Source: Lachnospiraceae bacterium
GTDB taxonomy: Bacteria > Bacillota > Clostridia > Lachnospirales > Lachnospiraceae
DNA: 64,000 bases
Reading direction: 5' to 3'
Assembly (NCBI GenBank): GCA_017622875.1
Contig: JAGAQG010000052.1
Coordinates: 56,428-120,427 of the forward strand
The stretch's first letter is position 1. Every line of letters starts with the position of its first letter. Below are positions 59,281 to 63,782 of the stretch, in pieces. Position numbers and translations under genes: made by a program. Under the pieces are notes generated by a model that worked only from the letters and a program-made list of their open reading frames with translations, searched no databases and had not been told where the DNA came from.

Positions 59281-59309
59281 TTGACATATACCCCTAGGGG
59301 GTATATGAT
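59281..59309 (+). promoter_or_regulatory. Copper-operon promoter and CsoR operator
   Basis: TTGACA (59281-59286) and TATGAT (59304-59309) are 17 bases apart. The spacer is filled by the palindrome ATATACCCC and GGGGTATAT around TAG (59286-59306), the classic CsoR operator. The repressor would block the promoter until Cu(I) binds. Confidence 0.9.
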
Positions 59310-59356: not shown

Positions 59357-59665
59357 ATGTCAGAAAAAGTATGCGAACACTGCTCTGGAAAGAGTAAGGA
59401 ACGTTCTGAAAAAGAATATAAAGACCTGTTAAACCGTCTGAGCCGCATTGAAGGACAGGTACGTGGTGTGAAGGCTATGGTGGAGCGTGATGCATATTGC
59501 ACAGACATTATTACTCAGGTGGCTGCAATCAATGCCGCATTAAACAGCTTTAATAAAGTACTTCTTGCAAACCATATCAAAACCTGTGTGACTCAGGATA
59601 TTAAGGATGGCAAAGAAGAAACAGTAGATGAGCTGGTAGCAACTTTGCAAAAACTGATGAAATAA
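59357..59665 (+). CDS. csoR: Copper-sensing repressor CsoR
   Basis: A 102-residue four-helix repressor of the DUF156 family. The Cu(I) ligands Cys48, His73 and Cys77 have the 25- and 4-residue spacing of characterised CsoR proteins. The N-terminus has another CEHC motif (residues 6-9), which may bind metal too. GAGG precedes the ATG, and the G-tract operator lies directly upstream, so copper is the likely effector rather than formaldehyde or persulfide. Confidence 0.93.
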   Translation: MSEKVCEHCSGKSKERSEKEYKDLLNRLSRIEGQVRGVKAMVERDAYCTDIITQVAAINAALNSFNKVLLANHIKTCVTQDIKDGKEETVDELVATLQKLMK

Positions 59666-59699
59666 ATGTTTTTTAGATGCTAGAAAAGAGGTAATGTTA

Positions 59700-62297
59700 A
59701 TGAAACAATACATTGTAACAGGTATGAGCTGTGCTGCCTGCAGTGCACGAGTAGAAAAAGCAGTGGGTCAGGTGCCGGGAGTTACCTCCTGCTCTGTCAG
59801 TCTGCTGACAAATTCCATGGGAGTGGAAGGTGACGCTGCCATTTCAGATGTCATCAAAGCGGTTACTGATGCCGGGTATGGGGCAAGTTTAAAAGAAACT
59901 GGCGCAGAAAAGAAAAAAGCTGATTATGCTGCACAAGAAGAAATGCTTAAAGATAAGGAGACACCTGTTTTAAAGAAAAGATTATTTGCTTCTTTGGGTT
60001 TTTTAGTTGTTCTGATGTATTTTTCCATGGGACACATGATGTGGGGATGGCCAGTTCCAGCGGTACTGGAGCATAATCATGTTGCGCAGGGACTGCTTCA
60101 GCTCCTTTTGACAGCAATTGTGATGGTCATTAATCAGAAATTTTTTATCAACGGATTCAAGAGTCTGTTCAAAGGTTCTCCCAATATGGATACTCTGGTT
60201 GCGCTTGGTTCTGCAGCAGCGTTTGTGTACAGTACAGCGGCATTATTTGTGATGACTGATGCCCAGATGAAAGGCGACAGTGCACTTGTCATGTCTTACA
60301 TGCATGAATTCTACTTTGAATCAGCAGCGATGATTCTTACATTGATCACCGTAGGAAAAATGCTGGAAGCCCGTTCAAAGGGAAAAACAACGGATGCATT
60401 AAAAGGACTTATGAAGCTGGCTCCCAAAACTGCAGTACTGGTGCGTGACGGTGTGGAAGTAGAAGTTCACATTGATGAAGTAAATAAAGGGGATATTTTT
60501 GTAGTTCGTCCGGGAGAAAATATTCCAGTAGACGGTATTATAATAGAAGGAACGACTGCGGTGAATGAATCTGCATTGACCGGGGAGAGTATTCCTGCAG
60601 ATAAAAATCCGGGAGATCTTGTTTCGGCAGCAACGCTGAATCAGTCAGGATTTATCCGCTGTGAGGCCAGACGTGTCGGAGAAGATACGACACTTAGCCA
60701 GATCATTCAGATGGTAAGTGATGCGGCAGCTACAAAAGCGCCGATTGCCAAGGTGGCAGATAAAGTATCTGGCGTATTCGTTCCGACAGTCATTACATTG
60801 GCAGTGATTACAACTTTTGTATGGCTTCTGACAGGGCATTCTATCGGTTATGCTCTTGCAAGAGGCATTTCGTTACTGGTAATCAGTTGTCCATGTGCCC
60901 TTGGTCTAGCAACTCCTGTAGCAATCATGGTGGGCAACGGAGTCGGTGCTAAAAATGGTATTATGTTCAAGACAGCAGTATCTTTGGAAGAAACCGGGAA
61001 AATGGATATTGTTGCATTGGACAAGACTGGCACGATCACAAGCGGTGAACCAAAAGTTACAGATATCTGGACAAACGATGATATTACAAAAGAAGAACTG
61101 GTAGGTGTTGCTTATGCATTAGAAGAAAAGAGTGAACATCCGTTAGCAAAAGCAATCGTTGACTTTGTAAAAGAAAATGAAGATCTGAATGCGAACTTAG
61201 CGACTACAGATTTTCAGATTTTGCCGGGCAATGGTTTGGAGGGAACTGTAGCTGGAGAAAAATGTGTTGGCGGAAGTTATTCTTATATTGAAAAAATTGT
61301 AAAAGTAACTCCTATAGTTCGTGATAAATACGTAACGTTTGCCGAAGAAGGTAAAACACCGTTATTCTTTGCAAAGAATGGAAAACTTCTGGGTATTATT
61401 GCGGTAGCAGACGTTATTAAAGAGGACAGTGCTGAGGCAATTAAACAGTTGGAAAATATGGGAATCCATGTAGTTATGCTGACGGGTGATAATGAAAGAA
61501 CTGCTAAAGCTATTGGAAAACAGGCTGGTGTTAACGAAGTAATCGCTGGGGTTCTTCCGAATGAGAAAGAATCTGTTATCCGTGCATTGATGGAAAAAGG
61601 CAAAGTTGCCATGGTCGGTGATGGTATCAATGATGCGCCAGCTCTTACGAGAGCTGATATAGGTATTGCCATTGGTGCAGGTACAGATATCGCCATTGAT
61701 GCGGCAGATGTAGTTCTTATGAAGAGCAGTCTGATGGATGTTCCGGCAGCCATCCGTTTGAGCCGCGCAACCCTTCGAAATATTCACCAAAATCTGTTCT
61801 GGGCCTTTTTCTATAACAGTATTGGGATTCCGTTGGCAGCAGGCGTATTTATTCCATTGCTTCACTGGGAATTAAATCCAATGTTCGGGGCAGCAGCCAT
61901 GAGCTTATCCAGCTTCTGTGTAGTGAGCAATGCGCTGAGACTGAATTTTGTGAAAATTTATGATACTGCGAAAGATAAAATGCGCAGAAAGAATCTTATA
62001 GAAGGAAATGCATTCGTAAAAGAGGATGCTTCTGATAAAAATAATCATGCATGTGACGAAGCATGCGCCATGAAGGAGGACAATACCATGGAAAAGACAA
62101 TGAAAATTGAAGGAATGATGTGCCCACACTGCGAAGCAAGAGTAAAGAAAACTCTGGAAGATATGGCACAGGTAAAGGAAGCTGTTGTGAGCCATGCAGA
62201 CGGTACAGCAGTTGTGAAATTGGCTGAAGCAGTAGACAATGATGTTCTTAAGAAAACCATTGAAGATCAGGGATATAAAGTACTTGATATTCAGTAA
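59700..62297 (+). CDS. copA: Copper-exporting P1B-type ATPase with N- and C-terminal metal-binding domains
   Basis: An 865-residue Cu(I) exporter. N-terminal HMA domain (Cys11 and Cys14 in MSCAACSARV), membrane region with CPC at 397-399, phosphorylated Asp441 (DKTGTIT) and GDGINDAP hinge. After the last helices come a Cys/His/Lys-rich linker and a second HMA domain (Cys808, Cys811 in MMCPHCEARV), an unusual C-terminal position. ATG 59700 is preferred to 59694 because of its 8-base distance from GAGG. An internal ribosome site could make the last domain alone. Confidence 0.93.
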   Translation: MKQYIVTGMSCAACSARVEKAVGQVPGVTSCSVSLLTNSMGVEGDAAISDVIKAVTDAGYGASLKETGAEKKKADYAAQEEMLKDKETPVLKKRLFASLGFLVVLMYFSMGHMMWGWPVPAVLEHNHVAQGLLQLLLTAIVMVINQKFFINGFKSLFKGSPNMDTLVALGSAAAFVYSTAALFVMTDAQMKGDSALVMSYMHEFYFESAAMILTLITVGKMLEARSKGKTTDALKGLMKLAPKTAVLVRDGVEVEVHIDEVNKGDIFVVRPGENIPVDGIIIEGTTAVNESALTGESIPADKNPGDLVSAATLNQSGFIRCEARRVGEDTTLSQIIQMVSDAAATKAPIAKVADKVSGVFVPTVITLAVITTFVWLLTGHSIGYALARGISLLVISCPCALGLATPVAIMVGNGVGAKNGIMFKTAVSLEETGKMDIVALDKTGTITSGEPKVTDIWTNDDITKEELVGVAYALEEKSEHPLAKAIVDFVKENEDLNANLATTDFQILPGNGLEGTVAGEKCVGGSYSYIEKIVKVTPIVRDKYVTFAEEGKTPLFFAKNGKLLGIIAVADVIKEDSAEAIKQLENMGIHVVMLTGDNERTAKAIGKQAGVNEVIAGVLPNEKESVIRALMEKGKVAMVGDGINDAPALTRADIGIAIGAGTDIAIDAADVVLMKSSLMDVPAAIRLSRATLRNIHQNLFWAFFYNSIGIPLAAGVFIPLLHWELNPMFGAAAMSLSSFCVVSNALRLNFVKIYDTAKDKMRRKNLIEGNAFVKEDASDKNNHACDEACAMKEDNTMEKTMKIEGMMCPHCEARVKKTLEDMAQVKEAVVSHADGTAVVKLAEAVDNDVLKKTIEDQGYKVLDIQ
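62088..62297 (+). CDS. Possible internal CopZ copper chaperone made from within copA
   Basis: In frame with copA, ATG 62088 is preceded by AAGGAGGA (62073-62080) at seven bases, an optimal ribosome site inside a coding region. Translation from it would give 69 residues: MEKTMKIEGMMCPHCEAR and onward, a complete HMA domain of the exact size of free CopZ. No separate copZ gene is present in this operon. Expression from this site is inference. Confidence 0.5.
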   Translation: MEKTMKIEGMMCPHCEARVKKTLEDMAQVKEAVVSHADGTAVVKLAEAVDNDVLKKTIEDQGYKVLDIQ

Positions 62298-62321
62298 AGT
62301 AAAATTTTTGAGGTAATGAAG

Positions 62322-63782
62322 ATGAAACGATCCTTTCGCAGGCAGTTGACGATGATTTTTACAGCGGTCATGGCCGGAACTTTATTGCTGATTTTTTTCA
62401 GCGGTGCTGTATTTTTGGAAAAATATTATATTGTAGACAAAAAGAATCAGGTCATGGAAGCGTATGAAAAATTTAATACAGCTGCCACGGAAGGGACAAT
62501 GGACACAGAAGAGTTTAAGGAAAGTCTTCAAAGCTTCAGTATGACGGACAATATTTCTGTCATTATTATGGGAACTGACGGAAAGGTTAGATTATATTCT
62601 ACCCGTGACAGTGAGAGATTGAAATTTCAGCTTTGGAACTATATCCTTGATAGGGAGTCTGTGGAAATGACAAAAATTCTTGAGGAGACTCCGGAATATG
62701 TCATCCGTCAGAGTCGTGACCATATGGTGGGTATGGAGTATCTGGAAATGATTGGAACACTGGACAGCGGCGATTATTTTATTATGAGATCTCCATTGGA
62801 AAGTATTCGAGACAGTGTAATGCTGTCGAACAAATTTTATATTGGTATTGGAATTGCAGCAATTGTTATCAGTGCGATTATTATTTATTTGTTCAGCCGA
62901 AAGGTGACAAAACCAGTCATGGAGCTGGCTGATATTTCAAAACGAATGACAGCCCTTGATTTTGATGCAAAATTCGAATCCAAAGGAGAGAATGAAATTG
63001 ATGTGCTGGGAGAACACATGAATCAGCTTTCCGAGGCACTGGAAAAAACAATTTCTGAATTAAAGACAGCAAATAATGAACTTCGAAGAGATATTGAACA
63101 GAAAGAAAAAATCGATCAGATGCGAAAAGAATTTCTGTCCAATGTTTCTCACGAGTTGAAAACTCCCCTGGCATTGATTCAGGGATATGCGGAAGGATTA
63201 AAAGATGGTATCAGCGAAGACCCAGAAAGCAGGGAATATTACTGTGAGGTCATTATTGACGAAGCACAGAAAATGAATACCATGGTAAAGAAGCTTCTAA
63301 CTTTAAATGAGGTAGAGTTTGGTCAGGATACCGTTTCTATGGAACGATTTAATGTTGCTGAGCTGATTGAAGGTGTAGCTCAGTCGTGCTCGCTGCTCGT
63401 ACAGCAAAAGGAAGGAAAGCTTCGATTGAAAGTGGAAAATCCACTCTATGTATGGAGTGATGAACTTAAAATAGAAGAAGTTCTTACTAATTATATAAGT
63501 AATGCGTGCAATCATTTGGATTGTGAGCGTATTATTGAGATTAAAGCAGAACAAAAGGAGGGTAAGGTACGTATCAGTGTATTTAATACTGGAAAACAGA
63601 TTCCAGAAGAGGATATGGAACGTATCTGGGAAAAATTCTATAAGGTTGATAAGGCGCATACCAGAGAGTATGGCGGCAGTGGCATAGGGCTTTCGATTGT
63701 AAAGGCGATTATGGAATCGGTCAATGGTTCTTATGGTGTAAAAAATTACATGAATGGTGTAGAATTTTGGTTTGAACTTTGA
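62322..63782 (+). CDS. Sensor histidine kinase, OmpR-partner type
   Basis: A 486-residue membrane kinase: helix 1 (about 9-30), extracellular domain (about 31-170), helix 2 (about 171-191), HAMP linker, HisKA with His277 (LSNVSHELKTPLALIQGY), and the ATPase domain with NYISNAC, FNTGKQIPEED and GGSGIGLSIVKAI. It starts 25 bases after copA with GAGG eight bases before ATG 62322. No regulator gene follows; the orphan OmpR-type regulator at 54532 is a candidate partner. Confidence 0.92.
   Translation: MKRSFRRQLTMIFTAVMAGTLLLIFFSGAVFLEKYYIVDKKNQVMEAYEKFNTAATEGTMDTEEFKESLQSFSMTDNISVIIMGTDGKVRLYSTRDSERLKFQLWNYILDRESVEMTKILEETPEYVIRQSRDHMVGMEYLEMIGTLDSGDYFIMRSPLESIRDSVMLSNKFYIGIGIAAIVISAIIIYLFSRKVTKPVMELADISKRMTALDFDAKFESKGENEIDVLGEHMNQLSEALEKTISELKTANNELRRDIEQKEKIDQMRKEFLSNVSHELKTPLALIQGYAEGLKDGISEDPESREYYCEVIIDEAQKMNTMVKKLLTLNEVEFGQDTVSMERFNVAELIEGVAQSCSLLVQQKEGKLRLKVENPLYVWSDELKIEEVLTNYISNACNHLDCERIIEIKAEQKEGKVRISVFNTGKQIPEEDMERIWEKFYKVDKAHTREYGGSGIGLSIVKAIMESVNGSYGVKNYMNGVEFWFEL

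Follow-up and report, generated by a model that had tools for sequence, protein, structure and literature searches.

A putative internal translation start in a Lachnospiraceae copA gene, predicted to release the C-terminal domain of the pump as a CopZ-like chaperone

The copA gene described here ends in a complete HMA domain that is preceded by what looks like a ribosome binding site of its own, and raises the question whether the gene gives rise to the copper pump alone or, in addition, to a small chaperone of the CopZ type. The gene is located on the forward strand of a stretch of 64,000 nucleotides, the window, at positions 59700..62297, with an alternative ATG start at 59694, and encodes a Cu+ P1B-ATPase of 865 residues with an HMA domain at both its N- and its C-terminus. 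The protein meets the curated model for copper-translocating ATPases (TIGR01511, 583.9 bits at a cut-off of 397) and matches the Pfam families PF00122, PF00702 and, twice, PF00403, while its 652.9 bits against the E. coli-type equivalog NF007952 stay below the 1316 bits required there. The N-terminal HMA domain (59709..59879, forward strand; PF00403, 58.8 bits) carries the motif GMSCAAC. Upstream of copA, a gene on the same strand (59357..59665; PF02583, E 1.6e-31) encodes a csoR-like copper-sensing repressor of 102 residues, whose score against the RicR model, 74.4 bits, remains under the curated cut-off of 175 bits. Reading of the sequence ahead of this gene revealed the near-palindrome ATATACCCCTAGGGGGTATAT (59286..59306, no strand assigned), which overlaps a TTGACA box and which, in view of a resemblance to CsoR operators, may be a CsoR operator. 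On the other side, a gene for a sensor histidine kinase (62316..63782, forward strand; PF00512/PF02518) begins 18 bases past the copA stop, giving the order csoR, copA, histidine kinase. A separate copZ does not adjoin copA in the window, in agreement with a preliminary description of this DNA that had been made from the sequence alone. The histidine kinase is probably a neighbour and not part of the feature: a crude motif scan of the 84 loci with at least 1.6 kb of downstream sequence detected a HisKA domain downstream of copA in a single locus, the window itself, and thus gave no support for the kinase as a conserved partner of copA.

The internal site lies at the end of a linker of 49 residues (61941..62087, forward strand) that connects the last membrane region to the C-terminal HMA domain and is hypervariable in relatives. 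It consists of the Shine-Dalgarno (SD) sequence AAGGAGGA (62073..62080, forward strand; duplex energy -12.1 kcal/mol), the 7-nt spacer CAATACC (62081-62087) and an ATG in the copA frame (62088..62090, forward strand), with both the SD and the start codon being conserved in relatives. The nested frame (62088..62297, forward strand) comprises 69 codons and shares the stop TAA of copA (62295-62297); its predicted product, at the same time the C-terminal domain of CopA, carries the motif GMMCPHC and matches the whole Pfam HMA model (PF00403, model positions 1-62 of 62, 50.9 bits at a cut-off of 24.8). Thus, an SD seven nucleotides ahead of an in-frame ATG and a complete 69-residue HMA domain, as given in the preliminary description, were both confirmed. 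The 69 residues align with solved CopZ proteins across nearly their full length, and chains of solved structures that bear the name CopZ or copper chaperone have 68-73 residues; scores against the CopZ models of NCBIfam were under the cut-offs (NF033795 51.9/91, NF047957 48.8/85 and NF033794 44.0/95 bits). Directly ahead of the site, the linker of the window contains Cys residues (HACDEACA, 62047-62070); two or more Cys were found in 12 of 274 linkers. A promoter scan of positions 61600-62400 gave two weak sites compared to 1.8 expected from shuffled sequences, leaving a separate internal transcript without support.

In order to judge the strength of the site, duplex energies were calculated with the canonical anti-SD, which was assumed because the 16S 3' end gave no match in the source genome, an assembly of 87.7% completeness. 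Long ORFs of the window contain 391 in-frame internal ATGs, of which seven reach -8 kcal/mol or lower, and the one at 62088 is the only one at or below -11 kcal/mol; the ATG of copA itself at 59700 has -7.2 kcal/mol. In place of a genome-wide background, we used the window and the loci of 80 relatives, and 175 of 6594 other internal ATGs in these 81 sources reach -8 kcal/mol. After K/E-rich stretches with a Glu at the position of the SD, 39 of 250 ATGs in these sources reach this value, compared to 74 of 79 at the nested site. For the remaining in-frame ATGs within the ORFs that carry the nested site, the corresponding share is 1.7% of 6672.

For the comparison with relatives, whose names indicate a Lachnospiraceae-like genome, we assembled a main set of 315 non-redundant CopA loci that leans to closer relatives. 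It consists of the window, 80 of 590 relatives, 25 loci from a family search (367 of 397 genomes matched), 96 from 100 stretches of the family list, 27 from 30 stretches of 60 lower-scoring genomes, 20 further loci, 3 from an HMA search, 24 from a class search (127 of 391 matched) and 39 from 40 class stretches. An additional search at the level of the phylum (72 of 398 matched) provided 25 new loci and 20 stretches, from which 45 CopA proteins were read, one locus of this set (L385) repeating a locus of the main set (L345). We left out 13 loci with identical last 400 nucleotides, 29 frames running off the ends of their stretches, frames that were shorter than 1200 nucleotides or lacked ATPase motifs, and the loci L001-L006 and L087. 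A locus was considered to have an internal start if an ATG 5-20 codons before the motif of the C-terminal HMA domain was combined with a duplex energy of -5.8 kcal/mol or lower, the best candidate being taken and GTG or TTG being accepted at codon -8, counted from the motif, only; the limit of -5.8 was chosen after the first tables had been seen and was checked by a test at fixed codon -8 and by other cut-offs.

All of the first 80 relatives have a C-terminal HMA domain in frame, and most of them have an SD and an ATG eight codons before GM.C, within a widely varying linker. In the main set, the domain is present in 287 of the 315 loci, two of which (L175 and L225) were included with the motif GI.C, and was not found in 28; the preliminary description had regarded a C-terminal HMA domain as unusual for CopA, whereas it turned out to be common in this lineage. 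The CxxC, which was also a search criterion, is present in all 287 of these domains, and their length counted from codon -8 is 66-73 residues in 282. An SD with a start precedes the domain in 274 of the 287 loci and is lacking in 13. The start is at codon -8 in 251 of them, ATG in 248 and GTG in 3, and the remaining 23 have an ATG at positions -6 to -14, each with an SD upstream, by which the start was picked; L138 and L243, with an SD and an ATG at codon -14, belong to this group. The duplex energy is -8 kcal/mol or lower in 250 of the 274 loci, and the distance between SD and start is mostly constant, with one spacing accounting for 172 of 211 loci. In the phylum set, 39 of the 45 CopA proteins have a C-terminal HMA domain, and 34 of these 39 have the SD and start. 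The site is kept across many families as well as in genomes of other classes of the same phylum. One of the loci counted as having no start, L190, has a TTG at codon -16 with a strong SD that is suitably spaced for initiation.

Conservation was considered separately for residues and for nucleotides. In 223 loci, the residues ahead of the start have entropies of 2.6-3.8 bits at most positions; low values were found for the Met (0.75 bits; 201 of 223 loci) and the Glu four codons earlier (1.28 bits). At the second and third positions past the Met, K and T are conserved to the same degree (K 255, T 243 and M 255 of 287), and residue conservation alone is therefore no proof of a start; part of the conservation of the Met may be due to a constraint on the protein. 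At the same time, the five residues before the start form 176 distinct peptides in 211 loci, and the SD is spelled by many of them. With the start fixed at codon -8, 229 of 257 loci (89.1%) reach -8 kcal/mol or lower. When the codons of the whole set were reshuffled synonymously 500 times with the peptide unchanged, this share averaged 37.7% and peaked at 46.3%, so that the observed value is above all 500. In a set of 215 loci, with codons counted from the start and expectations taken from the codon use of the same genes, Glu at codon -4 is encoded by GAG in 171 of 180 loci (expected 87) and Lys at codon -5 by AAG in 98 of 110 (expected 60). Next to them, the preference is reversed: GAG makes up 17 of 108 at codon -3 (expected 52) and AAG 11 of 83 at codon -6 (expected 46), GAA and AAA being preferred nearer to the start and at most positions further upstream. 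Judged by these codon statistics, selection is acting on the nucleotides of the SD and not only on the residues. The conservation of AAGGAGGA relative to neighbouring codons was a comparison set beforehand, and it came out in favour of the site: an in-frame start with a suitably spaced SD is kept, beyond the constraint on the protein, in a linker that is otherwise hypervariable. In addition, the mRNA near the internal start is less structured than at sampled other ATGs of the same ORF (-0.94 versus -8.61 kcal/mol), with lower structure in 274 of 274 loci, in part because the linker is A-rich (GC 0.30 versus 0.49). The internal SD and the SD of copA itself are of similar strength (means of -9.8 and -9.5, medians of -9.3 and -9.9 kcal/mol, respectively; n=268).

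In some relatives, copA is followed by a separate copZ, and we compared these loci at the same junction, as had been suggested in the preliminary description. The copZ start is located eight residues before GM.C in six of these split loci (L240, L250, L252, L259, L371 and L383), and five others have their nearest start 7 or 9 residues ahead of the motif. This supports the earlier proposal of a fused copZ with its own ribosome site. In L383, the copA stop is two bases ahead of the copZ start; L371 has a near-identical beginning of copZ but its copA stops earlier, and it is plausible that the two represent a step toward a copA-copZ fusion.

A separate HMA gene was found within 1.5 kb downstream of copA in 7 of the 13 loci lacking the start but, of 262 loci that have it, in just 2, L145 and L157, which represent two species of a single genus (Fisher test, p 2.7e-9, kinship of the loci being ignored); less than 1.5 kb of downstream sequence was available for 197 of the 262. 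Of the 28 loci whose CopA has no C-terminal HMA domain, 11 have such a gene. The downstream genes are mostly less than 300 bases from the copA stop. The association persisted at other cut-offs, with ratios of 3/267 versus 6/8 (-5.4) and 2/240 versus 7/35 (-8). In a FastTree phylogeny of the ATPase core, the fused loci show 13 changes of start state, and tree-aware pairs, an underpowered comparison, gave 0 against and 2-4 for, out of 9 supported (median p 0.125). In five of the 13 loci without a start, codon -8 is an ATG and the duplex energy, -5.5 or -5.6 kcal/mol, lies just at the cut-off. A downstream HMA gene was not found in six of the 13, nor in any of the five such loci of the phylum set; a free chaperone is therefore not needed everywhere or comes from elsewhere. 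Hence, the complementarity between internal start and separate HMA gene appears to be a trend and not a rule.

The site, its conservation at the level of nucleotides, its coupling to a start codon, the open mRNA and the split counterparts can be read from the sequences themselves. From these, we infer initiation in the cell and a stable product that serves as a copper chaperone. Accordingly worded, our explanation is that copA is very probably a gene with two products, a pump and a CopZ-like chaperone made by in-frame internal initiation; we do not put it more strongly because the K and T match the conservation of the Met and because five of the 13 calls without a start lie at the cut-off. Ribosomes that begin at the 5' start would produce the copper pump of 865 residues with a metal-binding domain at each end, and ribosomes that bind the SD at 62073-62080 would start at the ATG at 62088 in the same frame and produce the last 69 residues alone. 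The latter would be a free, soluble HMA protein of the CopZ type that carries cytosolic Cu(I) and passes it to the pump, while CopA would keep a tethered copy, the same domain being made within the pump. The output of the 69-residue protein would follow the copA message and is expected to be under the control of CsoR, and the ratio of pump to chaperone would be governed by two ribosome sites on this one message that are similar in strength. Most likely, the arrangement arose by loss of the copA stop codon ahead of a downstream copZ, whose ribosome site would then have been kept by selection. The internal initiation proposed in the preliminary description thus finds strong comparative support, and it is likely that in much of the phylum, CopA loci with a C-terminal HMA domain usually make their chaperone from a start hidden in copA and not from a separate gene.

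We weighed this explanation against four others. The site could be a fossil, i.e. the old ribosome site of a copA-copZ fusion that is out of use, and the existence of split relatives, with L371 and L383 resembling steps toward fusion, is in line with such a history. However, the site persists over many families and other classes of the phylum, it stays while the linker peptides turn over, and the choice of codons keeps it against the local preference for AAA and GAA, making this reading extremely unlikely. An SD between two domains could in principle act as a pause, and an SD-like sequence might slow down ribosomes for folding or insertion of the pump before the last domain without any initiation. 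The equal conservation of K and T after the Met weakens the argument from the start codon. A pause would not need a start codon, yet Met occupies codon -8 in 201 of 223 loci amid varying flanking codons, GTG takes its place in three loci with an SD, SD and start are paired at other codons, and the open mRNA near the start fits initiation; we give a mere pause just as little credence as a fossil.

The other two alternatives concern the product. Translation might work as in E. coli, where a -1 frameshift sets the N-terminal HMA domain free as the chaperone, the C-terminal site being secondary here, and such a mechanism could coexist with internal initiation. The window indeed has an in-frame TTTAAAA 55 codons past the N-terminal motif, followed by a -1 stop nine codons on. 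In a scan limited to slippery heptamers and -1 stops, some in-frame heptamer was present in the scanned stretch of 93 of 311 loci, but a -1 stop within 12 codons followed in just 24 of the 311, including the window, and with varied sequences and places. A conserved E. coli-type CopA(Z) frameshift was rejected on these counts, and we consider it very unlikely as the main source of the chaperone. It is also possible, albeit unlikely, that initiation is real and that the 69-residue protein serves for copper buffering, for metal transfer to CsoR or for competition with the metal-binding domains of the pump. The scores under the curated CopZ cut-offs and the presence of other small HMA proteins in some genomes leave room for such a role; the size, the CxxC motif and the position match free CopZ, and split relatives have a copZ-like gene at the same site, all of which argues for the chaperone.

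Parts of this arrangement have precedents. Archaeoglobus fulgidus CopA has an N-terminal metal-binding domain and reportedly also a C-terminal one, similar to the HMA domain at the C-terminus of the CopA described here. E. coli copA and CopA(Z) are said to be covered by Meydan 2017 and Drees 2017. E. coli copA is described as a single gene for pump and chaperone, using programmed -1 frameshifting (PMC5009743, PMC10187127). As in that gene (PMC5009743), one copA would yield an HMA protein of about 70 residues and the full pump; there, however, the short protein comes from the 5' part of the gene by frameshifting, whereas here it would be the C-terminal HMA domain, made by in-frame initiation at an SD. 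Proteoforms from in-frame internal starts are described for the short form of CcmM, CheA-S and InfB (PMC11005335), where, likewise, initiation at an additional in-frame codon leaves out the N-terminus and the shortened product, in the cases described, has a role of its own; unlike the examples named there, the product here would be a metallochaperone nested in its partner pump and a complete domain whose homologue is a free-standing gene. The typical arrangement is described as a separate copZ beside copA, with tandem copZ genes in Haemophilus influenzae (PMC10187127). The type and size of the predicted product and its pairing with CopA are the same as for these genes; the differences are that no stop intervenes and that the pump, too, includes the domain. 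Going by sequence, the present case is a joining of two known kinds, the two-product copA and the in-frame internal initiation of a C-terminal domain. Searching the open-access literature by titles and the openings of abstracts, we found no report of a chaperone start inside copA.

If our explanation is correct, at least two unrelated translational routes to a pump and its chaperone from a single gene have evolved, the one described here being a convergent solution with a mechanism different from the E. coli frameshift. It would also mean that an internal start occurs throughout the phylum and can be recognised from sequence alone, and it would explain why copZ is rare beside copA at such loci. 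Annotation with one frame per gene would miss a chaperone that is merged with its pump, and other annotations may lack similar nested domains.

With regard to further HMA proteins, the source genome contains four HMA matches at E <= 0.001, two of them in CopA, one in a frame of 708 residues and one in a protein of 118 residues. The latter, encoded on contig C9 (L003; 1480-1836, minus strand), has its HMA domain at the C-terminus, a CCGGG segment and what appears to be a membrane helix at the N-terminus. Several genomes that bear the internal start have other small HMA proteins elsewhere, and a general rule of no other small HMA proteins was rejected, since several of 20 stretches around small HMA frames show them. 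The types in these stretches are proteins of 80-94 residues with MMCGMC or MACxMC and DCANCA-type proteins. The MMCGMC/MACxMC family as a whole has roughly 79-94 residues, and most members end in a Y-K-K-G-F/L tail; its proteins are encoded downstream of copA in L059, L141, L145, L147, L157, L183 and L190 and elsewhere in the genomes in L299, L301, L306, L313 and L315, and the genes adjoining a copA without internal start are mostly of the MMCGMC/MACGMC type. DCANCA-type proteins, which have 76-89 residues and are unlike the nested CopZ, were observed in L297, L300, L302, L304, L305, L309, L310, L312, L314 and L316.
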